The notes beneath the pieces were generated by a model that ran no database searches, had not been told where the DNA came from, and saw only the letters and a list, made by a program, of their open reading frames with translations. A DNA stretch of 64,000 nucleotides from Streptomyces akebiae (lineage in GTDB: Bacteria > Actinomycetota > Actinomycetes > Streptomycetales > Streptomycetaceae). A program made the position numbers and the translations under genes. Shown in pieces: positions 3,176 to 46,646 of this stretch. Positions within the stretch are counted from its first letter, which is position 1; each line of letters starts with the position of its first letter. Location: NCBI RefSeq assembly GCF_019599145.1, contig NZ_CP080647.1, positions 6,448,001 to 6,512,000 on the forward strand, in the 5' to 3' direction.

Positions 3176-3751
3176 TCAGAAGTTCTGGACGTCCACCCGG
3201 GGCGCGCTGTCGTGCCAGGTGCAGAACACCGACACCCGGTCCGAACCGGCCGCGAAGTCGACCCGGATCCACGTCTCGGTCTTCCACACCTGCATCGACC
3301 AACCCGAGCCGGGCGTCGCCGACACGAGGGTCGCGTACTCCTCGCCGAGCGAGAAGACCACCCGGCCGCCCTCGGTGTCGTAGGCCTTTACCTCACCCGA
3401 GCCACCGGAGTCGGCCGAGCCGCCGACCGAGTCGGCCGGGGCGTCGGTGCCCGGACGGGGGCCGGGCTTCGCGGACTTCGCGGGTTCGGACGGCGTGGGG
3501 GACGGCTCGTCGCCGCCGCTCTCCTTCCGTGCCCCGGCGCTCCGCGACGGCTCCGGGAGCGCGGACGGCGTGACCGGCGCGGGCCCGCCCTGGGCCTGGG
3601 CGTCGGCGGCCGTGATGGGCAGCGCGCGAGGCGGGTCGTAGGCGGTGCCGGCCATCACCGTGTGGACGCCCCACCACGTCACCGTGACCGCCGCGCCCGT
3701 GGCGAGCAGCCAGGCCAGTACGTGTAGGAGTCCTCTGCGCATCGGGGCCAT
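3176..3751 (-). CDS. small membrane-anchored or secreted hypothetical protein
   Basis: The product is about 191 residues. It starts MAPMRRGLLHVLAWLLATG, a basic N-terminus plus one hydrophobic segment (about 7-30), so it is a signal anchor or signal peptide. A Pro/Ser/Ala-rich linker (45-125) follows, then a compact C-terminal domain (VKAYDTEGGRVVFSLG to VFCTWHDSAPRVDVQNF). The start could be ATG 3751 or ATG 3742. It is divergent from the two-component genes, so it may be a sensed or regulated envelope protein; that is inference. No family recognised. Confidence 0.6.
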   Translation of the reverse strand: MAPMRRGLLHVLAWLLATGAAVTVTWWGVHTVMAGTAYDPPRALPITAADAQAQGGPAPVTPSALPEPSRSAGARKESGGDEPSPTPSEPAKSAKPGPRPGTDAPADSVGGSADSGGSGEVKAYDTEGGRVVFSLGEEYATLVSATPGSGWSMQVWKTETWIRVDFAAGSDRVSVFCTWHDSAPRVDVQNF

Positions 3752-3840
3752 ACTGCCCCACGCGTCCCGGTGGTGTCGCGGGCGGACGAGTTGTCCACAG
3801 GCCCCGACCGGCCTCTCCCGTTTGGCGTACGGTGCGGCGC

Positions 3841-4545
3841 ATGGCAAGTGTGCTCGTGGTCGAGGACGACCAGTTCGTACGCTCGGCGCTGATCAGGCAT
3901 CTGACGGACGCCGCCCACACCGTGCGCAGCGTCGGTACGGCGCTGGAGGCGCTGCGCGAGGTCGCGCATGTCCGCTTCGACGTGGTCATCCTCGACCTCG
4001 GGCTGCCCGACCTCGACGGCTCGGAGGCACTGAAGATGCTGCGCGGCATCACGGACGTCCCGGTGATCATCGCGACCGCGCGGGACGACGAGTCGGAGAT
4101 CGTCCGTCTGCTGAACGCGGGCGCGGACGACTACCTGACCAAGCCGTTCTCGGTCGAGCACCTGTCCGCCCGGATGGCGGCCGTGCTGCGCCGCTCCCGC
4201 GCCTCCGGCGGCGAGGCGCCCCCGTCCACGGTGCTCCGGGTCGGCGGCCTCGCGATCGACCCGCTGCGCCGCCGGGCCGAGCTGGACGGCGTACGACTCG
4301 ACCTCACCCGGCGCGAGTTCGACCTGCTCGCGTTCCTCGCCGGCCGGCCCGGTGTCGTCGTCGCGCGCAAGGAGCTGTTGGCGGAGGTCTGGCAGCAGTC
4401 GTACGGCGACGACCAGACCATCGATGTGCATCTGTCCTGGCTGCGCCGGAAGTTGGGGGAGACGGCGGCGCAGCCCCGCTATCTGCACACGCTGCGGGGT
4501 GTCGGGGTGAAGCTGGAGCCGCCGGGGGCGGGGGCGCGGCCATGA
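3841..4545 (+). CDS. OmpR/PhoB-family response regulator
   Basis: The product has 234 residues. The receiver domain spans 1-115: VVEDDQ gives the acidic pair, Asp52 in VVILDLGLPD is the predicted phosphorylation site, and Lys101 in LTKPFS is the conserved lysine. The winged-helix DNA-binding domain fills 130-230 (LDLTRREFDLLAFLAGRPG, then QTIDVHLSWLRRKLGE, then LRGVGVKLE). ATG 3841 is preferred; an in-frame GTG lies at 3832. The stop overlaps the kinase start (ATGA), so the two are translationally coupled. The signal sensed is unknown. Confidence 0.92.
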   Translation: MASVLVVEDDQFVRSALIRHLTDAAHTVRSVGTALEALREVAHVRFDVVILDLGLPDLDGSEALKMLRGITDVPVIIATARDDESEIVRLLNAGADDYLTKPFSVEHLSARMAAVLRRSRASGGEAPPSTVLRVGGLAIDPLRRRAELDGVRLDLTRREFDLLAFLAGRPGVVVARKELLAEVWQQSYGDDQTIDVHLSWLRRKLGETAAQPRYLHTLRGVGVKLEPPGAGARP

Positions 4546-5927
4546 GGTGGGCGCTGGTCAAGGTGTGTGTGGCGGTGACGGCGATGGTCGTGGTGGCCTT
4601 CGCGGTGCCGCTCGGGCTGGTCGTCAAGGAGATGGCGCGGGACCGGGCGTTCTCCGGCGCCGAGCGGGAGGCGGCCGCGATCGCCCCGGCGCTCTCCATC
4701 ACCACCGACCGGGAGCAGTTGGAGCGGGTCGTCGCCTCGGCCGGGTCGGACGACGGGATGGCGGTGCACCTGCCGGCGGACGGCGCGGGGTCCGCCCCGC
4801 TCGACCTGGGCCGGCAGCGCGCCTCGGACGAGGACATCGCGACCGTGCGGAAGCTGGGCCGTGCCTCCACCACCGAGGTGCCGGGCGGGTCCACGCTGCT
4901 GCAGCCCACCGCGCTCAGCTCCGGGGAGATAGCGGTCGTCGAGGTGTATGTGCCCGAGTCGGAGGTGAGCCACGGGGTCGCCACGGCGTGGGCGCTGCTC
5001 GCGGGAGTGGGCGCGCTGCTGATCGTCGGCTCGGTCGCGGTGGCCGACCGGCTCGGGGTGCGGATGGTCCGGCCCGCGCAGCGGTTGGTCGAGAGCGCGG
5101 GGGAACTGGGGGAGGGGCGACTGGGCGCACGGGTGCCGGAGAAGGGGCCGAAGGAGCTGCGGCTGGCGGCGGTGGCGTTCAACGCGATGGCGGACCAGGT
5201 GGTGGGGCTGCTGGCGAACGAACGGGAGCTGGCGGCGGACCTGTCGCACCGGCTGCGCACACCACTGACCGTGCTGCGCCTCAACGCGGCCTCGCTCGGC
5301 GACGGGCCGGCCGCCGAGCAGACACGGGCGGCGGTCGAGCAGCTGGAGCGGGAGGTCGACACGATCATCCGTACGGCACGGGAGGCCAAGCCGCAGACGG
5401 TGGTGGCGGGGCCCGGCGCCGGGTGCGACGCGGCCGAGGTGGTCCGGGAGCGGATGGCGTTCTGGTCGGCGCTCGCCGAGGACGAGGGCCGCAAGTGGCG
5501 GGTGGCCGGGGTCGAGCGCCCGGCCCGCATACCCGTGGCCCGGACCGACCTCGCCACCGCCCTGGACGCGCTCCTCGGCAATGTCTTCCGGCACACGGCG
5601 CAGGGCACGGCGTTCGCGGTCGACGTTCACAACGGCGAGGACGCGGTGATCGTTCTCGTCTCCGACGCCGGTCCGGGCATCGCCGATCCCGAGGCCGCGA
5701 TGGCCCGGGGCCGGGGCTCCGGCAGCGACGGCTCGACCGGTCTGGGCCTCGACATCGTGCGCCGCCTCGCCGAGTCGACCGGCGGCGATGTGCGCATCGG
5801 GTCGTCGGTGCTGGGCGGGACCGAGGTGCGGATCTGGATCCAACTGGGCGGTGAGGACGGGCGGGCGACAGCGCGCAGGGGGCACCGTGGGCGCAGACAC
5901 ACCGGGTTGGCCTCGGCCTTCAAGTAG
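4542..5927 (+). CDS. sensor histidine kinase
   Basis: The product has 461 residues. Transmembrane segments lie near 8-28 and 146-168 and flank an extracytoplasmic sensor region of about 115 residues. A HAMP-like segment (VRMVRPAQRLVESAGELGEG) follows. The H box is ADLSHRLRTPLTVLRL with His236 as the predicted autophosphorylation site. The N box is LLGNVFRHTA and the G boxes are SDAGPGIADP and GLGLDIVRRLAE. The C-terminal 30 residues are basic and low complexity. It starts inside the response regulator stop codon, so the pair forms one operon. The sensor domain gives no ligand clue. Confidence 0.92.
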   Translation: MRWALVKVCVAVTAMVVVAFAVPLGLVVKEMARDRAFSGAEREAAAIAPALSITTDREQLERVVASAGSDDGMAVHLPADGAGSAPLDLGRQRASDEDIATVRKLGRASTTEVPGGSTLLQPTALSSGEIAVVEVYVPESEVSHGVATAWALLAGVGALLIVGSVAVADRLGVRMVRPAQRLVESAGELGEGRLGARVPEKGPKELRLAAVAFNAMADQVVGLLANERELAADLSHRLRTPLTVLRLNAASLGDGPAAEQTRAAVEQLEREVDTIIRTAREAKPQTVVAGPGAGCDAAEVVRERMAFWSALAEDEGRKWRVAGVERPARIPVARTDLATALDALLGNVFRHTAQGTAFAVDVHNGEDAVIVLVSDAGPGIADPEAAMARGRGSGSDGSTGLGLDIVRRLAESTGGDVRIGSSVLGGTEVRIWIQLGGEDGRATARRGHRGRRHTGLASAFK

Positions 5928-5954: not shown

Positions 5955-8717
5955 TCACAACCAGCGCACCGCCCGCATCCCCCGCGTCGCCACCGCCGCG
6001 TATCCGATGCCCACCGCGAGGGAGGCGAGGAGGGCGAGGACGGGGAAGTCGTGCTGGAGGTAGGGGTAGACCTGGAAGTGGGTCAGGTAGATGTAGAGGG
6101 AGCTGCCCGCGAGGAGGCCGGCGAGGCGGTTGAGGGGCCCGAGGCTGGGGAGGGTGGGGACCCAGATCAGCAGGGTCATACCGGTGATCACCAGGGCCGT
6201 TCGCAGGTGTTGGTCCGGCGGGAAGAGTCCGGGGGTGGCGAGCAGGAGGGTCGCCGTCAGGAGCCCGCGTTGCCAGGCTGTGCTCGCCCGGGCCGCCGCC
6301 CAGCCCAGGGCGAAGAGCCAGAAGACCACCGTGGGGCCGAGGTGGAAGCGGGCGGGGGCCAGATCGGGCAGGTCGTAGCGGCCGAGGAGGCCGATGGCCA
6401 GCAGGGCGAGGGGCACGCCGAACGTGCGACGGCGCTCCACGCGGTCCAGCAGGGGGAAGGCCATCAGCACGGCCAGGGCGATCAGGAAGTACAGGAGCGC
6501 CTCGATGAACCAGTAGTGCCACTCGTGGCGCTCGGGGCCCTGGTCGACGAGGCTGTTGAGGAGGAGGGCGTTGGCGGGGTCGTAGAGACCGGTCACGACG
6601 ACCGCGCCGGTGATCCACGCCGCGCTCGGGACGGCGATACGGGCGATGCTTCGCCACAAGTGTCGTACGCGCCGACGGTGTTCGGCGTCGGTGAGGTGGA
6701 AGCGGGCGAAGTTGTGGCCCGCGACGCCGATGAGGATGTGGGCGGCTCCCTGGAGGGTGAAGAGCTGGATGTGGGAGCCGACGACCAGGACGATGCCGAT
6801 GGCGCGCAGGGCGATGCCGGTTTCCAGCGTGCGGCGGGTTCGGCCGGGGGAGGGAGCCCGCTGCTGCTCGGCCGAGGCCGAGGTAGAGGGCGTCGGCGGG
6901 CGCAGGTCGCGGATCGGGCGGGTGTGCCAGTCGGGTGGGAGGGTGCCGAGTGCCTGCTCCAGGCGGAGGGACATCTCGACGTAGCCGAGGGAGTCGCCGC
7001 CCAGGCCGACGAAGGTGCTGTCCTCGGTGACGTCGGTGCGGTCGAGGATCTCGGCGTAGAGGGCGCGCAAGTCGTCCGTAGGGCGCACGTCGCCCCTGGT
7101 GCGCCCGCGGTCCGCTGGGTGCGCCAGTGCTGTCGCGGACTCGGTCGCCGTCCTGGACGCCGGTGTCGTCGGGCGGGTCAGGTGGCGTACCGCCGCGTAG
7201 TCGGGCTTGCCGGTCGACAGACGGGGGAGTTCGGTTTCGGGGAGGGCGCGGAGGCGGACGGCCCGGGGTGGGATGCCGCAGGACTCCGCCGCCAGGCGCC
7301 GGAGGCGGGGCTCGTCGGCGGTGGTGCCGGTGGCGGTGATCGCCAACTCGTCACCGTCGCCGGTGCAGTATGCCCGCACGCCGTGCCGTTCCAGTGCCGC
7401 TTCGACGCGCTGGGGGTCGATGCGCAGGCCGCGGATCTTCGCGAAGCGGCTGCGGCGGCCGACGATCTCGTAGAGGCCGTCGGAGGCCCGCCGGGCGAGG
7501 TCACCGGTGTGGAGTTCGGTGATGGTGCGGCCGAGGGAGAGATCGGCGGGGCTCTCGGCATAGCCGAGCATCACGTTGGGGCCCGAGTACACCAGCTCGC
7601 CCACATCCGGGCCGTGGTCGGCGTCACCCACCTCTCCCGCGTCTCCCACGCCCGATCCGTCGTCGCGGAGCGGATCCAGGCGGAAAGAGCCGCCGGGTAT
7701 CGGGATTCCGACGGCCTCCGGGCGGGTGGCGGCGAGGTGGGGCGGGAGGTAGGCCATGCGGGCCGTCGCCTCCGTCTGGCCGTACATGGCGAACAGGTCC
7801 CAGCCGGAGCGGTGTCCCAACTCGGCGTACCGGGCGACGCGTTCGGGTGCGAGTCGCCCCCCGGCCTGGGTGACCCGGCGCAGGTGCGGCAGCTCCATCC
7901 GGTCGAAGCCGATCCGGTCGAGGAGGTCGAAGGTGTACGGCACCCCGGCGAGCGAGGTGGCACGGGCGGCGCGGAACTCGGTCCAGAAGGCGTCGTCCGC
8001 GACCGACCGCTCGGTGAGGAGCAGTCCGGCGCCGCGCAGCAGATGGCTGTGGATGACGGAGAGGCCGTAGCAGTAGTGCATCGGGAGGGTGGTGGCCGCC
8101 CGATCGGTGTGGGTGATGCCGAGGTAGGCGGCGATGGACTCGGCGTTGGCCTGCACGTTCTCGTGCGAGAGCCGTACGAGTTTGGGTGCGCCCGTCGACC
8201 CGGAGGTGCTCAGCAGGAGGGCGAGATCCGGATGGAGGGTGTGGGCGGTGCCGGGGTGGCGCTCGTCGAGCGTCCAGGCGCCGTCGGCGTCCGGACGTGC
8301 CACCACGTCCGGGGCGTACGCGGCCGTGAGGGAGGCGACGGCGTGGTCGCTGTCGCCGGGGACGAGGAGCACCGGGTGGCCTGCGGAGAGGGCGGCCAGG
8401 TGGGTGACCAGCGCGCCCGCACGGTTGGCCCCGGCCAGCAGCACCAGCCGTCGTACGGGGCCGAGTCGTACGGCGGTGGCCGCGACGCGCTCGGCGAGGG
8501 CCCGGTAGGTGACCTCACCCGCGGGGGTGTGGAGGGCGACACGGTCGCCGTGCGCCGCGAGGTCGCGGGCGAAGGGCACCGCACGCGGTCGCACGGGCGA
8601 CCTCGGGAACGGTATCGGGGTGGGGTGGAGAGCCGAGGGACCGGACGGGACCCGAACGGGTCCGGTGGAGTGGATCACAGGGCGCGGCCTTTCCGCGACG
8701 GCGTCCGCGGGTAGCAC
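5955..8717 (-). CDS. adenylate-forming ligase / carrier / membrane acyltransferase-3 fusion
   Basis: The product has 920 residues from a GTG start with an AAGGGA site. Residues about 45-510 are an adenylating domain: LSTSGSTGAPK (169-179) is the P-loop-like core, then MYGQTEATARMAY, HTGDLARR (403-410), and STGK with Lys504 as the expected catalytic lysine. Residues about 545-605 are a carrier domain with GGDS, Ser576 being the phosphopantetheine site. From about 630 to the end is a polytopic acyltransferase-3 domain, with Arg638 and His649 in the family R-x10-H motif. The protein could activate an acyl or amino acid, load it on its own carrier and transfer it at the membrane; substrate and acceptor are unknown. 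It is divergent from an iron importer across an iron-box-like site. Confidence 0.82.
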   Translation of the reverse strand: MLPADAVAERPRPVIHSTGPVRVPSGPSALHPTPIPFPRSPVRPRAVPFARDLAAHGDRVALHTPAGEVTYRALAERVAATAVRLGPVRRLVLLAGANRAGALVTHLAALSAGHPVLLVPGDSDHAVASLTAAYAPDVVARPDADGAWTLDERHPGTAHTLHPDLALLLSTSGSTGAPKLVRLSHENVQANAESIAAYLGITHTDRAATTLPMHYCYGLSVIHSHLLRGAGLLLTERSVADDAFWTEFRAARATSLAGVPYTFDLLDRIGFDRMELPHLRRVTQAGGRLAPERVARYAELGHRSGWDLFAMYGQTEATARMAYLPPHLAATRPEAVGIPIPGGSFRLDPLRDDGSGVGDAGEVGDADHGPDVGELVYSGPNVMLGYAESPADLSLGRTITELHTGDLARRASDGLYEIVGRRSRFAKIRGLRIDPQRVEAALERHGVRAYCTGDGDELAITATGTTADEPRLRRLAAESCGIPPRAVRLRALPETELPRLSTGKPDYAAVRHLTRPTTPASRTATESATALAHPADRGRTRGDVRPTDDLRALYAEILDRTDVTEDSTFVGLGGDSLGYVEMSLRLEQALGTLPPDWHTRPIRDLRPPTPSTSASAEQQRAPSPGRTRRTLETGIALRAIGIVLVVGSHIQLFTLQGAAHILIGVAGHNFARFHLTDAEHRRRVRHLWRSIARIAVPSAAWITGAVVVTGLYDPANALLLNSLVDQGPERHEWHYWFIEALLYFLIALAVLMAFPLLDRVERRRTFGVPLALLAIGLLGRYDLPDLAPARFHLGPTVVFWLFALGWAAARASTAWQRGLLTATLLLATPGLFPPDQHLRTALVITGMTLLIWVPTLPSLGPLNRLAGLLAGSSLYIYLTHFQVYPYLQHDFPVLALLASLAVGIGYAAVATRGMRAVRWL

Positions 8718-8731
8718 GTTTCCCTTGACGC

Positions 8732-8750
8732 TTAGGCAAGCTTTACCTTA
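8732..8750. promoter_or_regulatory. candidate iron box (DmdR1/IdeR-type operator)
   Basis: TTAGGCAAGCTTTACCTTA matches about 13 of 19 positions of the Streptomyces iron box TTAGGTTAGGCTCACCTAA, as I remember it. It lies in the divergent gap between the ligase fusion and the iron ABC transporter. On the plus strand a TTGACG element (8725-8730) precedes it with a weak TTATTC at 8748, so a bound repressor would cover the transporter promoter. It also lies 15 bases upstream of the ligase start. It is weaker than the two boxes of the des region. Confidence 0.6.
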
Positions 8751-8852: not shown

Positions 8853-9908
8853 ATGCCACGCCCTCTGGCTGGCCGGATCACCGCGCTCCTCGCGGCCGGT
8901 CTGCTGCTCCCCGCACTCGCCGCGTGCGGTTCCGACGACAACGACGGCAGTGGATCGGGGGGCGATGGTGACGCCGCCCTCGTCATCTACTCCGGCCGCA
9001 ACGAGAAGCTGGTCAAGCCGATCCTGGACCAGTTGGAGAAGGCCGTCGGCGCCGATGTGGAGGTCCGCTACGGCGACAGCGCGGAGCTCGCCGCGCAGAT
9101 CCTGGAGGAGGGTGACCGCACCAAGGCCGGGCTGTTCTTCTCCCAGGACGCCGGGGCGCTCGGCGCGCTCTCCAGGGAGGGCATGCTGGCGAAGCTGCCG
9201 CAGGCCACCCTCGACAAGGTCGACAAGGCCTACCGGAGCGGCGAGGGCGACTGGGTGGGCCTGTCGGGGCGCGTCCGCGTCATCGCGTACAACCCGGACG
9301 ACGTGGCCGCGGACGAGGTCCCGGACAGCGTCCACGACGTGGTGAAGCCCGAGTGGAAGGGCAAGGTCGGCTTCGCGCCCACCAACGCCTCCTTCCAGGC
9401 GTTCGTCACCGGCATGCGCGTCCTGGAGGGCGACGACGCGACCCGGACGTGGCTGGAGGACCTGAAGGCCAACGGGGCCAAGACCTACGCCAACAACCTC
9501 GCCACCCTCGACGCCGTCGAGGCCGGTGAGGTCTCCCTCGGCCTGGTCAACCACTACTACTGGTACGAGCGGGTCGCCGAGAAGGGCGAGGACGAGGTCG
9601 ACGCCAAGCTGCACTTCCTGCCCGGCGGGGACCCCGGCGCGCTGATCAACGTGGCCGGCGCCGGCATCCTCGCCGACAGCGGTGAGCAGAACGCGACCGC
9701 CCGGAAGGCCGTGGACTACCTGCTGTCCGAGAAGGCGCAGACCTACTTCGCGGACACGACGAAGGAGTATCCGCTGGCCGCGGGCGTCACCAGCACCGTC
9801 GAGGGGCTGCCGCCGTTCGAGTCGCTCGAATCGCCCGACATCGACCTCGGCAGGCTGGAGTCCCTCCAGGAGACGCTGGCGATGCTGCAGGACGTCGGGC
9901 TGGTCTGA
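8853..9908 (+). CDS. iron(III) ABC transporter substrate-binding lipoprotein
   Basis: The product has 351 residues. It begins with a lipoprotein signal whose lipobox is LAAC followed by GSDDNDGSG. The mature part opens LVIYSGRNEKLVKPILD, typical of the Fbp/Fut ferric-binding family. NHYYWYERVAE holds the tyrosine pair that binds iron in that family. ATG 8853 follows a GGAAGG site. It is the first gene of a binding protein-permease-ATPase operon. The neighbouring iron box supports iron starvation control. A thiamine or other anion specificity is less likely because of the tyrosines. Confidence 0.88.
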   Translation: MPRPLAGRITALLAAGLLLPALAACGSDDNDGSGSGGDGDAALVIYSGRNEKLVKPILDQLEKAVGADVEVRYGDSAELAAQILEEGDRTKAGLFFSQDAGALGALSREGMLAKLPQATLDKVDKAYRSGEGDWVGLSGRVRVIAYNPDDVAADEVPDSVHDVVKPEWKGKVGFAPTNASFQAFVTGMRVLEGDDATRTWLEDLKANGAKTYANNLATLDAVEAGEVSLGLVNHYYWYERVAEKGEDEVDAKLHFLPGGDPGALINVAGAGILADSGEQNATARKAVDYLLSEKAQTYFADTTKEYPLAAGVTSTVEGLPPFESLESPDIDLGRLESLQETLAMLQDVGLV

Positions 9909-9914
9909 CCGGCA

Positions 9915-11531
9915 GTGAATACGCCTGAAGCCACCCCGCGTCCGGGAGCCACCCCGCGTCCGGGAGCCACCCCGCGTCCGGGAGCCACCTCGCGTCCCGC
10001 GACAGGCTTCGCCGCCCGCGGGGCGGACCGCAGACCACCCCTCATCCTGCTCGTCCCCGCCTGTGCGGCAGCCCTTTTCGCGCTGCTCCCGCTCGGCTAC
10101 CTCGCCGTCCGCGCGCTCGAACGGGGCCCCGCCTTCGCGTGGAAGGTCGTCGCCGACGAGCGGACGCTCCACCTGCTCGGCCGCAGCCTGGGCCTGACCG
10201 CGGTGGTCGTGGTGGCGTGTGGGGTGCTGGGTGTCTCGATGGCCTGGCTGACCGTGCGTACGGCGCTGCCGGGCGCCCGCGCCTGGTCGATCGCCACCAC
10301 GCTGCCGCTGGCCGTGCCCAGCTATGTGGCCGCCTTCACCTGGCTGTCGGCCGAACCGGACCTTGCCGGGTTCGGCGGCGCCGCGCTCGCCCTGACGCTG
10401 GTCAGCTTCCCGTACGTGCAGCTGCCGGTCGCGGCAGCGCTCAGGGGCATCGACCCGGCGCAGGAGGAAGCCGCACGCTCCCTCGGGCACGGCCCACTCC
10501 GTACGTTCCTCCGGGTCACCCTCCCGCAGCTTCGCCCGGCGGCGGCGGGCGGGGCGCTGCTCGTCGCGCTGTACGTGCTCTCCGACTTCGGCGCGGTCTC
10601 CCTCATGCGGTACGACACCTTCACCCGGGCCATCCACACCTCCTACCGCGCCTCCTTCGACCGCACCCCCGCAGCCGCTCTCAGCGTCGTCCTGGTGGTG
10701 ATGACGGTGGCCCTGGTCGCCGCCGAGGCCCGTACGCGCGGCCGTGCGGGACACGCCAGGACCGGCGGCGGGACCGCCCGCCCGGCCGCCCCCGTGCCGC
10801 TGGGCCGCTGGAAGTCGCTCGCCCTGCTGTGGTGCGGCGCGGTGGTCGCCGTGGCCGTCGCCTTCCCGCTGGGGACCCTCGGCTACTGGCTCACCGTCGG
10901 CTCCTCGGCCACCTGGGACCTCGGCGGCCTCACCGAAACGGCTTGGGCCACACTCGGCGTAGCGGCGGCGGGCGCCGCCCTCACCACCGCCCTCGCCCTG
11001 CCCGTCGGCGTGATCGCCGCCCGGCACCGGGGACGCGGCGCCCGGCTCCTGGAACAGGCCGCGTACGCGGGGCACGCCCTCCCCGGCATCACGGTCGCCC
11101 TCTCCCTGGTCTTCTTCGCCGTCCGCTACGCCTACCCCCTCTACCAGCGACTCCCCCTGCTGGTCTGTGCGTACGCGGTCCTCTTCCTCCCGATCGCGGT
11201 GGCCGCCACCCGGGCCGCCGTACTGCAGGCCCCGCCCGTCCTGGACGACGTGGCCCGCTCGCTCGGCCGTCGCCCCTGGCAGGTCCTGCGCGAGGTCACC
11301 GTCCCGCTGGCCGCGCCCGGTGTCGCCGCCGGGGCCGCGCTCACCTTCGTCGTCTGCATGAAGGAACTCCCGGCGACCCTGCTCCTGCGCCCCACCGGCA
11401 TGGACACCCTCGCCACCCGCCTCTGGACCGAAACCGGAGCGGGTTCCTTCGCGGCGGCCGCCCCGTACGCCGCCGCACTCATCCTGTTGGCCGCCGTGCC
11501 TTCGTACCTGCTGGGGAGGCACCGAACATGA
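9915..11531 (+). CDS. iron(III) ABC transporter double permease
   Basis: The product has 538 residues and about twelve hydrophobic segments in two homologous halves, as in FbpB-type permeases. Each half carries an EAA-like loop: EEAARSLGHGPLRTFLRVTLP and DDVARSLGRRPWQVLREVTVP. The GTG start at 9915 lies 6 bases after the binding protein stop. The N-terminal tail is unusual: an 18-bp unit repeated about four times (9930-10001) encodes ATPRPG repeats before the first membrane segment. The stop overlaps the ATPase start. Confidence 0.9.
   Translation: MNTPEATPRPGATPRPGATPRPGATSRPATGFAARGADRRPPLILLVPACAAALFALLPLGYLAVRALERGPAFAWKVVADERTLHLLGRSLGLTAVVVVACGVLGVSMAWLTVRTALPGARAWSIATTLPLAVPSYVAAFTWLSAEPDLAGFGGAALALTLVSFPYVQLPVAAALRGIDPAQEEAARSLGHGPLRTFLRVTLPQLRPAAAGGALLVALYVLSDFGAVSLMRYDTFTRAIHTSYRASFDRTPAAALSVVLVVMTVALVAAEARTRGRAGHARTGGGTARPAAPVPLGRWKSLALLWCGAVVAVAVAFPLGTLGYWLTVGSSATWDLGGLTETAWATLGVAAAGAALTTALALPVGVIAARHRGRGARLLEQAAYAGHALPGITVALSLVFFAVRYAYPLYQRLPLLVCAYAVLFLPIAVAATRAAVLQAPPVLDDVARSLGRRPWQVLREVTVPLAAPGVAAGAALTFVVCMKELPATLLLRPTGMDTLATRLWTETGAGSFAAAAPYAAALILLAAVPSYLLGRHRT
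9930..10001 (+). repeat. 18-bp tandem repeat inside the permease gene
   Basis: Three identical copies of GCCACCCCGCGTCCGGGA occupy 9930-9947, 9948-9965 and 9966-9983, with a degenerate fourth to 10001. They are in frame and encode the Ala-Thr-Pro-Arg-Pro-Gly hexapeptide. A multiple-of-three unit can change copy number without breaking the gene. Confidence 0.9.
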
Positions 11532-12667
11532 ACAAGCCGCATACGACCGAGACACAGGCGGCCGAGACACAGCCGGCCGAGACACGGGCGGCCGAGCCGC
11601 ACGCCGACGAGCCGCACGCCAACGAGCTGTACGTCGAGGGGCTCACGAAGTCCTACGCGGCCGGAGACCCGGTCCTGCGTGGCCTCCGGCTCACCGTCCC
11701 CGCAGGCGCGCTGGCGGCCGTCCTCGGCCCTTCCGGATGCGGTAAGACGACCCTGCTGCGCATCGTCGCCGGGTTCCTGCCGGCCGACGCGGGAACCATC
11801 AGGCTCGGCGGCCGGGTCCTGACCGGTCCCGGTGTCCACCTGCCGCCCGAGCGGCGCCGCATCGGGATCGTGCCGCAGGAGGGGGCCCTCTTCCCGCACC
11901 TGAGTGTGGCGCGGAACGTCGCCTTCGGGCTCACGGGCCTGGCCCGGGGTGAACGGCGGCACCGTACCGAGGAACTCCTGGAACTGGTCGGCCTGGCCGG
12001 ATACGGCGACCGGATGCCGCACGAACTCTCCGGCGGCCAGCAGCAGCGCGTGGCCCTCGCCCGGGCTCTCGCCCCCCGCCCCCGGCTCGTGCTGCTGGAC
12101 GAGCCGTTCAACGCCCTCGACAGCGCGCTGCGGGCCGGGGTCCGGGCCGACGTACGGGCCGCGCTTCGGGCGACCGGGGCCACGGCGCTCCTCGTCACCC
12201 ACGACCAGCAGGAAGCCCTCTCCACCGCCGACCTCGTCGCCGTCGTCCGGGACGGCCGGGTCGCCCAGTGCGACACCCCGCAGGATCTCTACCGGCGCCC
12301 CGTCGACCCCTGGGTCGCGGGCTTCGTCGGCGACGCGGTAGTGCTCCCCGCCACCGTGAACGGTGACGGCACGGCCCACACCGCGCTCGGCGCCGTCCCG
12401 CTCACCGTCCCGCCGCCGGGCCTTCGCGCCGGTACGGTCCTGCTCCGCCCGGAACAGCTCGCCCTCACCGGGCCGACCGCCGAGGGAACGGTGCGGGGCA
12501 CGGTCACCGACGTCCGCTTCTACGGCCACGACGCCATGGTCACCGTCGCCGTCGACGGGCACGACACCCCGGTCGACATCCGTGTCGCGGGCCCGCTGCC
12601 GGTGCGGCCGGGCGACGAGACCGGCATCCGGGTCCTGGGCGACGCGACGCTGCACCCGGCGGTCTGA
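11528..12667 (+). CDS. iron(III) ABC transporter ATPase
   Basis: The product has 379 residues. Walker A is GPSGCGKTT, the signature is LSGGQQQR, Walker B is LVLLDEP and the H-loop is VTHDQQEA. A C-terminal TOBE-like domain (about 270-379) marks the FbpC/PotA group of importers. The first 35 residues are a Thr/Glu/Ala-rich repeat tail (ETQAAETQPAETRAAEPHA) before the conserved start at LYVEGLTKSYA, so translation may really begin later, but ATG 11528 overlaps the permease stop as ATGA. It completes the operon. Confidence 0.9.
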   Translation: MNKPHTTETQAAETQPAETRAAEPHADEPHANELYVEGLTKSYAAGDPVLRGLRLTVPAGALAAVLGPSGCGKTTLLRIVAGFLPADAGTIRLGGRVLTGPGVHLPPERRRIGIVPQEGALFPHLSVARNVAFGLTGLARGERRHRTEELLELVGLAGYGDRMPHELSGGQQQRVALARALAPRPRLVLLDEPFNALDSALRAGVRADVRAALRATGATALLVTHDQQEALSTADLVAVVRDGRVAQCDTPQDLYRRPVDPWVAGFVGDAVVLPATVNGDGTAHTALGAVPLTVPPPGLRAGTVLLRPEQLALTGPTAEGTVRGTVTDVRFYGHDAMVTVAVDGHDTPVDIRVAGPLPVRPGDETGIRVLGDATLHPAV

Positions 12668-41168: not shown

Positions 41169-41728
41169 ACGGCTACTCCTCGGGCAGCCAGGCTCTGGCT
41201 GCGAAAGAACTGCTCTCGCGTGCAGAAGCTCAGCAGTGCGCGCTTCTCCGGCTTGTCGATCTCGCGGTCGGGGACGAAACCGACGACTTCGTTGAGGGCG
41301 TGGACGGCCTTGTTGGACACGTCCGGCTCGACGACGACCCGGTGGGTGGCCGGGTCCTCGAAGAGGTGCGCCATCACGGCGGTGATCACGGCCCTGGTGA
41401 AGCCGTGCACCGGGGTGTCCGTCGGCGGCACCAGGAAGTGCATGCCGACGTCCCCGGGCTCGGGCTCGTACAGGCCGACGAGTTCGCGGTGGGCGGGGTC
41501 GTACTTCTCCATGAGGAACGCGGGTTCGCCGTCGCGCAGCCCCAGCAGGGCGTGGTGGTGCGGGTCGGCCGCGATCTCCATGTACGCCCGCTCGACGTCC
41601 TCCAGCCTGGCGTCCTGCATCATCCAGTACGCCGCCTTGGGGTGCGTGACCCAGCCGTGCAGCAGCTCGGCGTCGGTGAGCGGGTCCAGGGGACGGAAGG
41701 TGAAGTCCGTGCCGTTCAGGCCGCTCAT
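41165..41728 (-). CDS. desC: N-hydroxycadaverine acyltransferase DesC
   Basis: The product has 187 residues of the IucB/RhbD acyltransferase group (GNAT fold). Motifs are [37 protein letters not shown] and [20 protein letters not shown]. It acylates N-hydroxycadaverine with succinyl- or acetyl-CoA. It overlaps desB upstream and desD downstream by four bases each, so the operon is fully coupled here. Confidence 0.95.
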
Positions 41729-43014
41729 ACGGCGAACTCCTGGAAGGCGATCGTCTTCTCCACCGGGTAGTACTCGGTGCCGAGCAGCTCGCGGATGATG
41801 TACGCGTTGCGGTACGCGCCCATGCCCAGGTCGGGCGAGGTGATGCTGTGGGTGTGGACGCCCGCGTTCTGGAGGAAGATCCCCCGGCCGGTGGTGTCGA
41901 TCGCGTAGTTGCGGGCCACGTCGAAGCGGCCGTGGCCGTCGAAGACCAGCCGGTCGTTGATCGAGGAGAGGAAGGCCGGCGGCCGGTAGTGGTAGCCGGT
42001 GGCCAGGACCAGGCCCTCGGTCTCGATCTCGAAGTCCTTGCCCTGCTCGTCCTGGCGCAGGCCGAGAACGTACCGCCCGTCCTCGTGCGTGGCGCTGTTG
42101 AGGGACGAGTTGGTGAGCAGGCGGGTCGGTACCGGGCGGCCGCCGGCGGTCACGTTCTTCTGGTAGAGCAGGTCGAAGATCGAGTCGATCAGATCCCCGT
42201 TGATGCCCTTGAACAGGCCCTTCTGCTGCTTCTCCAGCCGGTAGCGGGTCTCCTCGGGCAGCGCGCGGAAGTAGTCGATGTAGTCCGGGGACGTCATCTC
42301 CAGCGTCAGCTTGGTGTATTCGAGGGGGAAGAACCGCGGGGAGCGGGTGACCCAGTTGAGCTGGTAGCCGTGGACGTCGATCTCGGAGAGGAGTTCGTAG
42401 TAGATCTCCGCGGCGCTCTGGCCGCTGCCGACGATCGTGATCGACTTCTTCGACCGCAGCTCCGCCTTGCGGTGCATGTACTGCGCGTTGTGGAAGAAGT
42501 CGCCGCCCAGGTCCTGGCAGGCCTCGGGGATGTACGGGACGGTGCCCGTGCCGAGGACCAGCCGCCGGGCACGCAGGACGTCCCCGTCGGCCGTGCGCAC
42601 GGCGTAGACGTCGTCCTCGTACGTCACCTCCGTCACCGTCGTGCTGAAGCGGACGTTGCTCAGCCGGCCCGCTGCCCAGCGGCAGTAGTCGTCGTACTCG
42701 ACCCGCAGGGGGTAGAAGTTCTCGCGGATGTAGAACGAGTACAGGCGGCCCGAGTCCTTCAGGTAGTTCAGGAAGGAGTACGGGGAGGTCGGGTCGGCGA
42801 GGGTGACCAGGTCCGACATGAACGGGGTCTGGAGGTGGGCGCCGTCGAGGAACATCCCCGAGTGCCACTCGAAGTCCGGCTTCGAGTCCAGGAAGATCCC
42901 GTCGAGTTCGGCGATGGGCTCGGTGAGGCAGGCGAGGCCGAGGTTGAAGGGTCCCAGTCCGATGCCGATGAAGTCGTAGGTCTTCACGGCGGGTTCAGGA
43001 AGCGACGCGGTCAA
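41725..43014 (-). CDS. desB: cadaverine N-monooxygenase DesB
   Basis: The product has about 429 residues. The FAD site is [16 protein letters not shown], the NADPH site [17 protein letters not shown] and the family C-terminal motif [10 protein letters not shown]. It hydroxylates cadaverine at nitrogen using NADPH and oxygen. I chose TTG 43014 ([15 protein letters not shown]) because GGGAGAATCCC sits just before it. ATG 43041 is the alternative and has no such site. Either start overlaps desA, by 20 or 47 bases. Confidence 0.93.
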
Positions 43015-44440
43015 GGGATTCTCCCAGGTACTGCTCGGCATGGCCGGCGATCAGATCGAGCACGGCGGCGATGTCCTCGGCCGTGGTCTCGGGGTTGAGC
43101 AGGGTGAACTTCAGGTAGTGGCGACCGCCGACCTTGGTGCCCGCGACCACGGCGTCGCCGGAGGCGAACAGGGCCTTGCGGGCGTACAGGTTGGCGCGGT
43201 CGATCTCCGCCGGGTCGGTGACGGCCTCGGGGATGTAGCGGTAGACCAGCGTGGAGAGCTGGGGCTGCACGACGACGTCGTAGCGCGGGTCGGCGGCGAG
43301 CAGTTTCCAGCCCTCCTCCGCCAGGTCGCAGACCTCGTCGAAGAGCTGGCCGATGCCGTCGGCGCCCATCGTGCGCAGGGTCATCCACAGCTTGAGCGCG
43401 TCGAAGCGGCGGGTGGTCTGCAGGGACTTGTCGACCTGGTTGGGGATGCGCTCGGTGACCATGCGGCGCGGGTTGAGGTACTCCGCGTGGTAGGTGGCGT
43501 GGCGCAGGGTGTCTCCGTCGCGGACCAGGACGGCGGACGAACTCACCGGCTGGAAGAAGGACTTGTGGTAGTCCACCGTGACGGAGTCGGCGCGTTCGAT
43601 GCCGTTCAGCAGGTCGCGGCGCTTGCGGGAGACGAGGAGGCCGCAGCCGTAGGCGGCGTCGACGTGCATCCAGGTGTCGTACTGGGCGCAGAGCTCGGCT
43701 ATCTCGGGCAGCGGGTCGATGGAACCGAAGTCGGTGGTGCCGGAGGTGGCGACGACGGCCATGGGGACGAGGCCGTCGTTCCTGCAGCGCTCCAGCTCAC
43801 GGGCGAGCGCCATGGTCTGCATGCGCTTGTCGCCGTCGACGGGGATGGAGACGACCGCGTCCTGGTCCAGGCCCAGCAGTTTCGCCGACTTCTTCACACT
43901 GAAGTGGCTGACCTCGGAGGCGAAGATCCGCAGTTTGGCGGTGCTGTCGGTTTTGGCCTCCTCGCGGGCGAGGAGCAGCGCCTGGAGGTTGGACTGCGAG
44001 CCGCCGGAGGTGAACACCCCGTCGGCGGACGGACCGAACCCGATGCGCTCGCTGGTCCAGTCGATCAGTTTGCGCTCGATCAGGGTGCCGCCGGCCGACT
44101 GGTCCCAGGTGTCCAGGGAGGAGTTGACGGCGGAGAGCACGGCCTCGCCCAGCACGGCCGGGATGACGACCGGGCAGTTGAGGTGGGCGAGGTAGCGCGG
44201 GTGGTGGAAGTAGATCGCGTCCCGCAGATAGACGTCCTCCAGCTCGTCGAGGACGGCGGCCGTGTCGTGCAGCGGCTTGTCGAGGTCGATCTTGTCGATG
44301 CGGGGGGAGAGGGCGTCGACGGTGACACCGGTGAACGGTCGTTCGGTGGTGGCGAGTTTGGCCGCCACCCGCTCCACGCCTTCGGTCACGGTGCGGCGGT
44401 ACCGCTCCGCGGTCGTGTCATTGAGCAGGTGCGAGCGCAT
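42995..44440 (-). CDS. desA: PLP-dependent lysine decarboxylase DesA
   Basis: The product has 481 residues, the group II decarboxylase fold. Lys293 in [10 protein letters not shown] binds [14 protein letters not shown] holds the conserved Asp, and [16 protein letters not shown] is the PLP phosphate region. It turns lysine into cadaverine, the first step of desferrioxamine synthesis. ATG 44440 follows GGAGGACC. The iron box 74 bases upstream should repress the whole desABCD operon when iron is ample. Confidence 0.96.
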
Positions 44441-44513
44441 GGGGAGGTCCTCCGAGCGGGGCGGTCCGGGTGGGACGGAGAGGTGAGTGGGGGGTGACAT
44501 CACGTCGTCCAAC

Positions 44514-44532
44514 TTAGGTAAGCCTAACCTAA
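44514..44532. promoter_or_regulatory. iron box of the desABCD operon
   Basis: TTAGGTAAGCCTAACCTAA is a near-perfect 19-bp palindrome and matches the DmdR1 iron box that controls des in other Streptomyces. It lies upstream of desA and past the siderophore-interacting gene, so it should serve desA. Confidence 0.95.
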
Positions 44533-44613
44533 TTAACTTGAGCGAAATCCTGGCTCGGCCGTGACCGTGGTCACTTCAGTGACTCCGGTTCCGGTGCCGG
44601 CGGTGACGCCCGA

Positions 44614-45471
44614 CTATTCGCCGCGCTCCCGCAGTTGCTCCTCCGTCAGGCCCTCGCGCCAGTACCCGACGAAGGTGACGCGCCGCTTGTCGATCCCGCG
44701 CTCCCGCACGAGATGACGGCGCAACTCCTTCACGCGGCCGGACTCACCGGCGATCCAGGCGTACGGCAGCTCACTGGGCGGCAGTTGGGCCGCACGGATG
44801 GTGTCGAGGGCGGTCGGCGCCCCCTCGCTCCGCACCAGCCAGGTGATCTCGGCGTCGGCCTCCGTCACCAGATCCTGGATGTCCCCCGCGTGGTGGACCT
44901 CCAGCCAGACCCGCGCCCGCGTACCGGCAGGCAGCGACTCCAGGATCGCCGAGGCGGCGGGCAGCGCGGTGTCGTCGCCCCAGATCAGCACCAGGTCGGT
45001 GTCGGTCGGCGGACGGAAACGGATCGCGCGGTTGTCCGCGATCGCGGGCCCGAGCAGCACGACCCGGTGTCCGGGGGCGGCCTGGGCGGCCCACCGGGAC
45101 GCCGGACCGGCGGGCGCGGCGGCCCCCGGCTCGACCCCGTGCAGCACGAAGTCGATGTCGATCTCGACGGTGTCGCCGTGGACGTCCGAGCGGAGCCCCC
45201 GCAGGGTGTACGAACGCATCACCGCCCGTACGTCGTCCGGCAGTTCCCGCCACCCCTGCCACCAGCCGTCGCCCAGCTCGAAGGGGATGGCCGGGGTGTC
45301 CTGCCCCGGATGCGGCAGAAAGAGGGAGAGTGACTGATCCCGGCCGTCGGAGTGGAAGTACCTCAGATCGTCCCCCGCGAACGAGACACGCACGAGAGAC
45401 GGCCCCAGCCGCTCCGTCCGCACGACCTGAAGGGAGAAGAAACGGAAGGGGGTGGCTACGGCCGTCGTCAT
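44614..45471 (-). CDS. siderophore-interacting protein (ferric reductase type)
   Basis: The product has 285 residues of the ViuB/SIP family. The FAD site is MRSYTLRGLR, and LVLIWGDDTALPAASAILES with LPYAWIAGESGRVKELRRHL forms the NADPH part. It reduces iron in imported ferrioxamine to release it. ATG 45471 follows AGGAG. It lies between desE and desA; no iron box is seen directly before it, so it may be transcribed with desE. Confidence 0.92.
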   Translation of the reverse strand: MTTAVATPFRFFSLQVVRTERLGPSLVRVSFAGDDLRYFHSDGRDQSLSLFLPHPGQDTPAIPFELGDGWWQGWRELPDDVRAVMRSYTLRGLRSDVHGDTVEIDIDFVLHGVEPGAAAPAGPASRWAAQAAPGHRVVLLGPAIADNRAIRFRPPTDTDLVLIWGDDTALPAASAILESLPAGTRARVWLEVHHAGDIQDLVTEADAEITWLVRSEGAPTALDTIRAAQLPPSELPYAWIAGESGRVKELRRHLVRERGIDKRRVTFVGYWREGLTEEQLRERGE

Positions 45472-45530
45472 GAGATGGGCTCCTGAATCAGGGGCGGTAC
45501 GAATGTGGGAGGGGGCGACCCCGGGAGACT

Positions 45531-45563
45531 CAGGGGCGCGGGGAACTGCGCGAGAAGCCCCAC
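45531..45563 (-). repeat. 33-bp intergenic repeat, copy 2 (inverted)
   Basis: This is the exact reverse complement of 39201-39233. It fills part of the 122-base gap between desE and the siderophore-interacting gene. With copy 1 it brackets that gene and desABCD. Confidence 0.9.
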
Positions 45564-45593
45564 CGGAGCCGCAGCCGCCCCACGACCTCGGCC

Positions 45594-46646
45594 TTAACTG
45601 ACCTTCTTCGCCTTCTCGATCGCCTCGGCCAGCTCCTCGAGAAGTGGCGCGCACTTGTCGTAGGACAGGATCGGCTCGGGGTTACGCCCGATGACCTGAC
45701 CGGCCTTCACCGCGGGAAGCTTCTTCCACGTCGCCTCCTCGATCGCGTCCGGCTGGATCGCCGACGTGCGGTTGTCCATGATGATGACGTCCGCGTCGTA
45801 CTTGTCGACGTTCTCCCAGCTGAGGTTCTCGAACCAGCCGCCACTGGCCTTCAGCGCGGCGGCGCTCGGCTCGACGAAGTTCACGCCGAGGGCCTTGAAG
45901 TACTCCAGGTCGATGGAGAGGTTCGAACCGGACACGTAGAAGATGTCCTGGCTGGCGGAGCCGGCGAGCACCTTGATGTCGGGCTTGGCCTTGGTGGCCG
46001 CGCGCAGCCGGGCGGCCGCGTCCTCGAACCGCTTCTTGGCGGCGGTGATCTTCTCGGACTCCGTGTCCGCGCCGAGGGACTTGGCCAGCTCCAGCACGCG
46101 CTGCAGCGGCTCGGTCAGCTGACGGTCGTACGCGGAGATGCCGACGCTCGGCGCGAGCTTGGCGATCTTGTCCTTGGAGGCCTCGGGCACGTACCAGAGG
46201 GTGCCGGCGTCGTCGAACATCGTGGTGATGAGGACGTCGGGGGAGAGGGAGGCGTACTTCTCGACGTTGAACTCGTCCCAGACGTTGCCGAGGATGGTGA
46301 CCTTGTTGATGTCGAGGTCGCCGGCCTGGACGTCGGCCTTGCCGTCGGCGGTCCTGGTGGGGCCGAAGACGCCCTTGACGCCGATGCCGTAGTCGTGGAG
46401 CGCGGCGGCGACACCCACGAAGGCGACGATGGTCGACGGGACCTCGTCGGTCTTTACGGTCTCGCCGCGGTCGTCCTTGAACGACCAGGGGCCGGACTTG
46501 GCGGCAGCCGTCTCCTTGTCGGAGCCAGTGCTGCTGCTCGTCGAGTCCTCGTCCCCGCAGGCGGCGAGCACGGCACCGAGACCGAGTGCGCCACCGGCGG
46601 CGAGGATGCCACGGCGGGTGAGGTGAGCGGCTCTGGCGTTGGACAT
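45594..46646 (-). CDS. desE: ferrioxamine-binding lipoprotein DesE
   Basis: The product has 350 residues. A Tat-like signal (TRRGILAAGGALGLGAVLAA) ends at the lipobox LAAC followed by GDED. The mature part is a FhuD/BtuF-type binding fold (TIVAFVGVAAALHDYGIGVK; ASLSPDVLITTMFDDAGTLW; DADVIIMDNRTS). It captures ferrioxamine B and E for an ABC importer encoded elsewhere. An iron box lies 54 bases upstream. Confidence 0.95.
   Translation of the reverse strand: MSNARAAHLTRRGILAAGGALGLGAVLAACGDEDSTSSSTGSDKETAAAKSGPWSFKDDRGETVKTDEVPSTIVAFVGVAAALHDYGIGVKGVFGPTRTADGKADVQAGDLDINKVTILGNVWDEFNVEKYASLSPDVLITTMFDDAGTLWYVPEASKDKIAKLAPSVGISAYDRQLTEPLQRVLELAKSLGADTESEKITAAKKRFEDAAARLRAATKAKPDIKVLAGSASQDIFYVSGSNLSIDLEYFKALGVNFVEPSAAALKASGGWFENLSWENVDKYDADVIIMDNRTSAIQPDAIEEATWKKLPAVKAGQVIGRNPEPILSYDKCAPLLEELAEAIEKAKKVS

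Follow-up and report, generated by a model that had tools for sequence, protein, structure and literature searches.

Why does a gene that fuses acyl-activating, acyl-carrying and membrane acyltransferase domains stand divergently beside a ferric-iron importer, and what might its product make there? The question is raised by positions 5955-8717 of a 64,000-nucleotide stretch of the Streptomyces akebiae genome (contig NZ_CP080647.1, positions 6,448,001 to 6,512,000 of the forward strand), hereafter termed the window. A reading made from the letters alone (the sequence-only reading) had picked out this gene as the best candidate for an undescribed system. Our computational analysis found a three-domain architecture with conserved catalytic residues, a conserved iron box, and both linkage to and co-occurrence with an FbpABC-type importer. 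We propose, with doubt slightly outweighing belief, that the protein is a trans-membrane acylation machine in one self-contained chain, which would be switched on by iron starvation and would work together with the ferric importer. The gene and its domains are:

5955-8717, minus strand: fusion gene, 920 residues, adenylation, carrier and AT3 (acyltransferase-3) domains in this order (open frame and Pfam)
7173-8585, minus strand: adenylation domain, residues ~45-515, with the A10 lysine Lys504 and the pocket residues Cys216 and Arg320
6918-7085, minus strand: carrier (PP-binding) domain, residues ~545-600, with the codon of Ser576 at 6990-6992 (Pfam; Ser576 in 53/53 aligned proteins)
5961-6836, minus strand: AT3 membrane domain, residues ~628-919, with Arg638 (6804-6806) and His649 (6771-6773)

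A single 920-residue open frame on the minus strand fully occupies 5955-8717, and its three Pfam matches all lie above their gathering scores, bearing out the fusion as first read: AMP-binding at residues 154-386 (E = 2.1e-38), PP-binding at residues 549-595 (E = 6.9e-7) and Acyl_transf_3 (PF01757) at residues 636-901 (E = 7.1e-11; 42.2 bits against a gathering score of 31). The GGDS motif, described earlier as intact, terminates at Ser576, and the R-x10-H motif was found in helix 1 of the AT3 part as R638-x10-H649. For conservation we employed two alignments. The first comprised 53 sequences, i.e., the window protein and 52 relatives of 45-88% identity to it; the second comprised 20, i.e., the window protein, two relatives from the first set and 17 others, at 37-48% identity and including members named Ilumatobacter or Ilumatobacteraceae. 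Lys504, Ser576, Arg320, Arg638 and His649 are invariant in both (53/53 and 20/20). In the AT3 part of the first set, Trp736, Glu739, Tyr877 and His880 are likewise invariant and Ser873 is present in 52/53; the second set keeps Trp736, Glu739 and His880 throughout and Ser873 in 19/20, with Tyr877 in only 10/20. The adenylation core motifs TSGSTG and TGD together with Lys504 occur in 53/53 proteins and place the domain in the PF00501 superfamily. Because the catalytic residues are invariant in both alignments, we regard the fusion as a conserved and presumably working protein rather than a chance frame. In the predicted structure, linkers of low confidence flank the carrier domain at both ends, and the AT3 domain model has about ten membrane helices by our own reading of the listed helices. 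A GTG at codon 14 (base 8678) is the start used by 11 of 15 aligned relatives and may be the true start of the gene. The same DNA also holds an 887-residue open frame on the plus strand (6051-8714), which we take to be a shadow frame because of the high G+C content.

The sequence-only reading had proposed a search for the same domain order with a table of neighbours. Among the 53 aligned proteins, this returned AMP-binding in 53, PP-binding in 52 and Acyl_transf_3 in 50 (E 0.001), with FbpABC at 50 of 80 loci. In a first protein search, 7,991 candidates were scored and 3,753 relatives emerged at E 0.001 (the best 120 listed); a second search gave 4,738 at the same threshold; relatives among the matches listed bear names such as 'AMP-binding protein' or no name. 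The fusion protein occurs in 11 genomes of an even sample of 149 from the phylum (E 1e-90), corresponding to 10 of 117 genera, and in 6 of 13 genomes sampled from the genus. The architecture is thus patchy but widespread. The view that a complete chain of activation, loading and membrane transfer is unusual therefore stands for the literature searched and falls for genomes, given the thousands of relatives. No account of the fusion or of its link to FbpABC was found in the full-text literature searched, with most subscription papers outside that search, which agrees with the suggestion that the fusion is undescribed. In their available parts, two papers on AT3 proteins (one being PMC9558356) name only SGNH, alanine-racemase and unspecified eukaryotic fusions, a paper on the DmdR1 regulon of S. 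coelicolor names no such gene, and PMC13061897 holds nothing concerning the fusion gene. The literature searched likewise yielded no measurements of the gene's expression or of regulator binding to it. An NCBIfam scan of 45 AT3 parts assigned no family.

A hint at the process that the enzyme may serve comes from its partner. The divergent importer and the site between the two genes, both pointed out before, were confirmed as follows:

8732-8750, no strand assigned: putative iron box of the DtxR/IdeR/DmdR1 type within the promoter region shared by the divergent genes, reading TTAGGCAAGCTTTACCTTA on the plus strand, 5 mismatches to the consensus
8853-9908, plus strand: FbpA-like ferric-iron substrate-binding protein, the divergent partner, with a lipoprotein-like signal (by eye) and Tyr235-Tyr236
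9915-11531, plus strand: FbpB-like permease with two BPD_transp_1 stretches (Pfam)
11528-12667, plus strand: FbpC-like ABC ATPase (ABC_tran, TOBE_2), start approximate

The 8853-9908 protein matches FbpA-type ferric-binding proteins (best PDB match 7w3w, E = 2.2e-76). Its Fe3+-binding tyrosine pair, Tyr235 and Tyr236, is present in 52/52 aligned rows, the window copy being counted twice. Where Haemophilus influenzae FbpA has His9 and Glu57, the window's protein has Asn50 and Gln98 (His in 14/52 and Glu in 9/52 rows), and since these two ligands are not matched, we file the protein as FbpA-like only. No second FbpA-like protein was found elsewhere in the S. akebiae genome at E 1e-15. We then compared 80 related loci. 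As their genes were called by a simple script that missed or mirrored some of them, the transporter counts were taken from tblastn. All three importer parts lie within 10 kb of the enzyme gene in 49 loci, and binding protein plus ATPase in 50, with the nearest part no more than 500 bp away in 47 of these 50. The two units are divergent in 30 loci; the importer lies upstream in the same direction in 11, the genes converge in 5 and the enzyme lies upstream in 4. That the neighbour persists despite such rearrangement speaks strongly for joint action. In four Arthrobacter/Pseudarthrobacter loci (L051, L053, L057 and L062), the ferric-binding protein next to the enzyme shares no more than 31-32% identity with that of the window, suggesting that another type of FbpABC has moved into this position.

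This association extends to whole genomes. In the genus sample (n = 13), the binding protein was found in 6/6 genomes with the enzyme versus 0/7 without it (p = 6e-4), and three further genomes of the genus within the phylum sample have neither. Across the phylum sample, the binding protein (E 1e-20) is present in 11/11 genomes with the enzyme, the window genome counted among them, versus 46/138 without (p = 1.3e-5, kinship ignored). Enzyme and importer genes are neighbours in 5 of these 11 genomes and lie apart in the other 6, so the association is more than linkage. Beyond the genus it runs one way, as the importer protein occurs without the enzyme in 46 phylum genomes and, among genomes of the same order, in 4 of 8. 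Judged by genome comparison, the link of the enzyme with ferric-iron uptake is closer than co-regulation by itself would give.

With 5 mismatches in 19 bases, the box in the window is weak if taken alone; it carries weight because it is conserved across related loci. At up to 5 mismatches, the 80 loci hold 88 sites in the 35.6 kb that surround the starts of both genes versus 3 in the other 1.57 Mb, and at up to 4 mismatches the numbers are 56 (in 49 loci) versus 0. A box stands beside the enzyme or the transporter gene in 69/80 loci, where dinucleotide shuffles give an expectation of 0.15. It accompanies 47/50 loci with FbpABC and also 22/30 loci without FbpABC in the stretch; in ten Arthrobacter-type loci it lies 31 to 33 bases ahead of the enzyme gene. 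The box is present in all five enzyme-bearing relatives from the genus and in 5/10 loci of the even phylum sample, for which about 1.5 kb of flank was covered. For a genome-wide scan, the pattern was widened to admit the window site and up to one mismatch was allowed. It hit eight places in the S. akebiae genome, four of them exactly, the window site being among the exact ones by construction; the reversed control hit none. Five of the other seven places adjoin siderophore or iron-uptake genes: the exact place at 44514-44532 of the window is flanked by genes for a desferrioxamine-type decarboxylase and a siderophore-interacting reductase, and four more are next to genes for a siderophore-interacting reductase, a Peripla_BP_2 protein, a FecCD permease and a lysine/ornithine monooxygenase. 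The remaining two places border on genes for a DUF2470 protein and a protein with a neocarzinostatin-like domain, the latter ~2 kb from the Peripla_BP_2 site; we take both to be haem-uptake genes. A chance box is ruled out by the shuffles, the positions and the reversed genome-wide control. The putative box and its conservation in relatives point to membership of the enzyme gene in a DtxR/IdeR/DmdR1 regulon by promoter site. Of the earlier suggestion of acylation under iron limitation, it is the iron control that gains support, from comparative genomics of box, linkage and co-occurrence.

Two side observations concern the box. The desferrioxamine-type locus at 41725-46646, ~35 kb from the fusion gene, contains a Lys/Orn monooxygenase, a PLP decarboxylase, a siderophore-interacting protein and a periplasmic binding protein, and its near-perfect box at 44514-44532 served as a positive control. 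In five Nocardia copies (L073, L076, L077, L084 and L085), box and FbpABC are both absent from the examined stretch, and at L076 the enzyme gene adjoins genes for a PAC2-family protein and for methionine synthase. These copies may have changed in role or regulation.

Once mirror frames of the importer and other ABC ATPases are set aside, each neighbour cluster is confined to at most 6 of the 80 loci. Clusters 3, 5 and 6 are mirror frames of importer genes, and in cluster 4, 10 of 22 members are other ATPase-like frames away from the importer; clusters 9 and 12 (5 and 4 loci), the two not confined to a single lineage, were left unannotated. Among 20 neighbour proteins scanned in loci without the importer, no gene for siderophore synthesis or the envelope was found. 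Where matched by Pfam, these neighbours are housekeeping or unrelated proteins (such as methionine synthase, Pup ligase, proteasomal ATPase, Ser/Thr kinase, a luciferase-like enzyme, DNA glycosylase, SDR and MFS proteins), and a shared operon with other enzymes was ruled out on their account. Just downstream of the fusion gene, on the opposite strand, lies a sensor histidine kinase gene (3645-5927; HAMP, HisKA, HATPase_c), which was matched in only 1 of the 80 other loci. A further relative was seen at L098 (1999-7179, in the related genome G001), where an adenylation protein shares 38% identity and the QTEATAR motif with the window protein, has no AT3 domain and adjoins a second AMP-binding protein, a family-2 glycosyltransferase and an epimerase. 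The locus appears to be a distinct one for the acylation of glycoconjugates. That the system occurs there in split form was ruled out, as there is no AT3 among the seven proteins scanned.

What might the enzyme activate? Among solved structures, the best sequence match of the adenylation part is the 3-methylaspartate-activating VinN (PDB 3wv5/3wvn, solved with this substrate; E = 3.3e-26), which ranks ninth in the structural table with the lowest r.m.s.d. (2.5 Å) and the highest identity (29%) among the rows shown. VinN Arg331 aligns with Arg320, invariant in both of our sets; in contrast, VinN Asp230 is replaced by Cys216 and Ser299 by Ala285. In VinN, Asp230 is the contact of the amino group. 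Position 216, which we take to be that of PheA Asp235, is Cys in 50/53, Ser in 2 and Val in 1 of the first set, and Cys in 14/20 and Ser in 6/20 of the distant set. Adenylation enzymes activating alpha-amino acids generally have Asp at this position. Amino-acid activation was dropped as first choice on these grounds, and the pocket weakly suggests a substrate without an amino group there, which may bear a second carboxylate. Of 80 NCBIfam models, the 25 listed each stayed below the respective cut-off.

As the adenylation domain dominated the structure search with the whole model, the AT3 part was folded separately; alone, it is predicted to be a ten-helix TmAT with an HGSNAT-like fold. Motif definitions were taken from the available parts of PMC9833829 and PMC12423673. 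The S-x3-Y motif is kept in the closer set. RXXR, expected at the cytosolic end of helix 3, is absent in its exact spacing at this place, position 690 being Ser in the window protein and Arg in 0/53; arginines spaced by three, R689-x3-R693, occur instead in 31/53 and 43/53 proteins, and in 19/20 and 18/20 of the distant set. The Asp of DxxR is missing in 53/53, with an acidic residue three places earlier (632) in all. The known donor of AT3 enzymes is acyl-CoA, according to the available parts of PMC9558356 and PMC9833829. The fused carrier would bear the same phosphopantetheine arm, which, by analogy with what is proposed for DltC and DltB (PMC11035591), could replace CoA in the AT3 pore.

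In the mechanism that we propose, the cytosolic adenylation domain would activate a carboxylic acid, not an alpha-amino acid and possibly one with a second carboxylate, and the acyl group would move onto the phosphopantetheine arm of Ser576. The carrier, on its flexible linkers, would then dock at the cytosolic mouth of the AT3 domain, so that the arm enters the pore used by acyl-CoA in other AT3/TmAT enzymes. Finally, the acyl group would be passed to an acceptor at the outer face; the resulting ligand, secreted or retained at the surface, would hold or release Fe3+ to the benefit of the adjacent binding protein. We infer the induction, the details of the first three steps, the sidedness and, above all, the last step. 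The product best supported by these comparisons would be an extracytoplasmic acylated compound that aids FbpA in obtaining Fe3+. A bolder form, which we think unlikely, is a one-protein metallophore system without a siderophore cluster: the enzyme would activate a polycarboxylic acid of central metabolism, carry its phosphopantetheine thioester through the AT3 pore and install an outer iron ligand that feeds a dedicated FbpABC. It would be a new iron-acquisition route spread across Actinomycetota and, to our knowledge, include the first AT3 enzyme supplied not by CoA but by a carrier arm of its own. The second carboxylate is weakly founded, because the otherwise different L098 relative has the same Arg.

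Other explanations have to be weighed against a machine that serves the importer. The enzyme might instead remodel the envelope, acylating a wall or lipid-linked glycan under iron shortage in a Dlt-like manner and sharing only its regulation with the importer. We doubt this, although AT3 proteins are described as acylating extracytoplasmic glycans in the available part of PMC9558356, the L098 adenylation protein adjoins glycosyltransferase and epimerase genes, and the enzyme lies apart from the importer in 6 of 11 phylum genomes. Adjacency to FbpABC in four arrangements and the co-occurrence in the genus exceed the needs of shared regulation, no envelope gene stands among the 20 neighbours scanned in loci without FbpABC, and the remaining neighbours recur in at most 6/80 loci. 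The last two points have their counterpart for siderophore decoration, with a conventional siderophore from elsewhere in the genome, e.g., desferrioxamine or a coelichelin-like peptide, as the target, since those 20 neighbours hold no siderophore gene and no cluster other than FbpABC exceeds 6/80 loci (clusters 9 and 12 being unannotated). This idea appears very improbable to us. The desferrioxamine-type genes in the window do carry the same box, as does a locus where an ornithine/lysine monooxygenase occurs together with a formyltransferase and a FecCD permease; the partner, however, is an FbpABC-type and not a siderophore importer. Such importers take up free ferric ions (available part of PMC3534580), which speaks against the finishing of an ordinary siderophore, and acylation and capping of desferrioxamine are credited to DesC and DesGH in the available part of PMC12161575.

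Little credence is given to a polymer synthetase, in which adenylation and carrier domains would feed a membrane domain that joins copies of a hydroxy-polycarboxylic acid into an exported iron-binding polyester. The Cys at position 216 in 50/53 proteins, where alpha-amino-acid enzymes generally have Asp, and the invariant Arg320 would suit such a substrate. The broad layout of adenylation, carrier and membrane parts does resemble that of poly-lysine, poly-ornithine and polymalate synthetases (PMC10522769 and PMC9210645, in part); the membrane domain here is nevertheless of the AT3/TmAT type and not the PosA type, modelled with six helices and three beta-helices, and we know of no polymerising AT3. 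It is also highly unlikely, in our view, that a lipid or small molecule is acylated on the cytosolic side with the AT3 domain as mere anchor or product exporter, as the His of R-x10-H, which faces the extracytoplasmic side in the OafB model (PMC9833829, in part), is invariant here. If the importer-serving machine holds instead, bacteria studied for their siderophores would have an added iron-acquisition route, and, because donor loading, carrier and pore share one chain, it would offer a compact system for studying how acyl groups cross membranes. Conservation of a regulator box can suggest a role for an enzyme where scanned neighbours show no siderophore gene.

How does this system compare with those already known? 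Among the importers, FbpABC, SfuABC and HitABC have the binding protein, permease and ATPase that the window matches; they differ in the His9 and Glu57 equivalents, and no acylation enzyme is mentioned beside them in the available part of PMC3534580. The AT3/TmAT enzymes OafB, OatA and HGSNAT share Acyl_transf_3, R-x10-H, the HGSNAT-like fold and, with the closer relatives, S-x3-Y. Their known members use acyl-CoA, as far as the available sources go, whereas a carrier is fused here, the RXXR spacing is shifted, the DxxR Asp is missing and Tyr877 is kept in only 10/20 of the distant set. The NRPS-like homopolymer synthetases, i.e., epsilon-poly-lysine synthetase, PosA and polymalate synthetase, are described in part as combining adenylation, carrier and membrane parts in one chain. 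The C-terminal domain of epsilon-poly-lysine synthetase spans ~730 residues and comprises six helices plus three soluble parts (PMC10522769, in part), and that of PosA is modelled with six helices and three beta-helices, in contrast to an AT3-type domain of ~290 residues and about ten helices here. The Dlt system (DltA, DltC and DltB), which D-alanylates teichoic acid, combines ATP-dependent activation, a phosphopantetheine carrier, cytosolic docking on a membrane acyltransferase and transfer outside (PMC11035591, in part), all of which is predicted for the fusion. Dlt, however, employs separate proteins, an MBOAT transferase and an amino acid, whereas the enzyme described here is one chain with an AT3 domain, has Cys or Ser at the amino-binding Asp position and carries an iron box on its gene. 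Carrier-fed trans-membrane acyl transfer, as proposed for the fusion, is of a known kind, and what is new is the different membrane part (AT3), the single chain and the conserved iron box.
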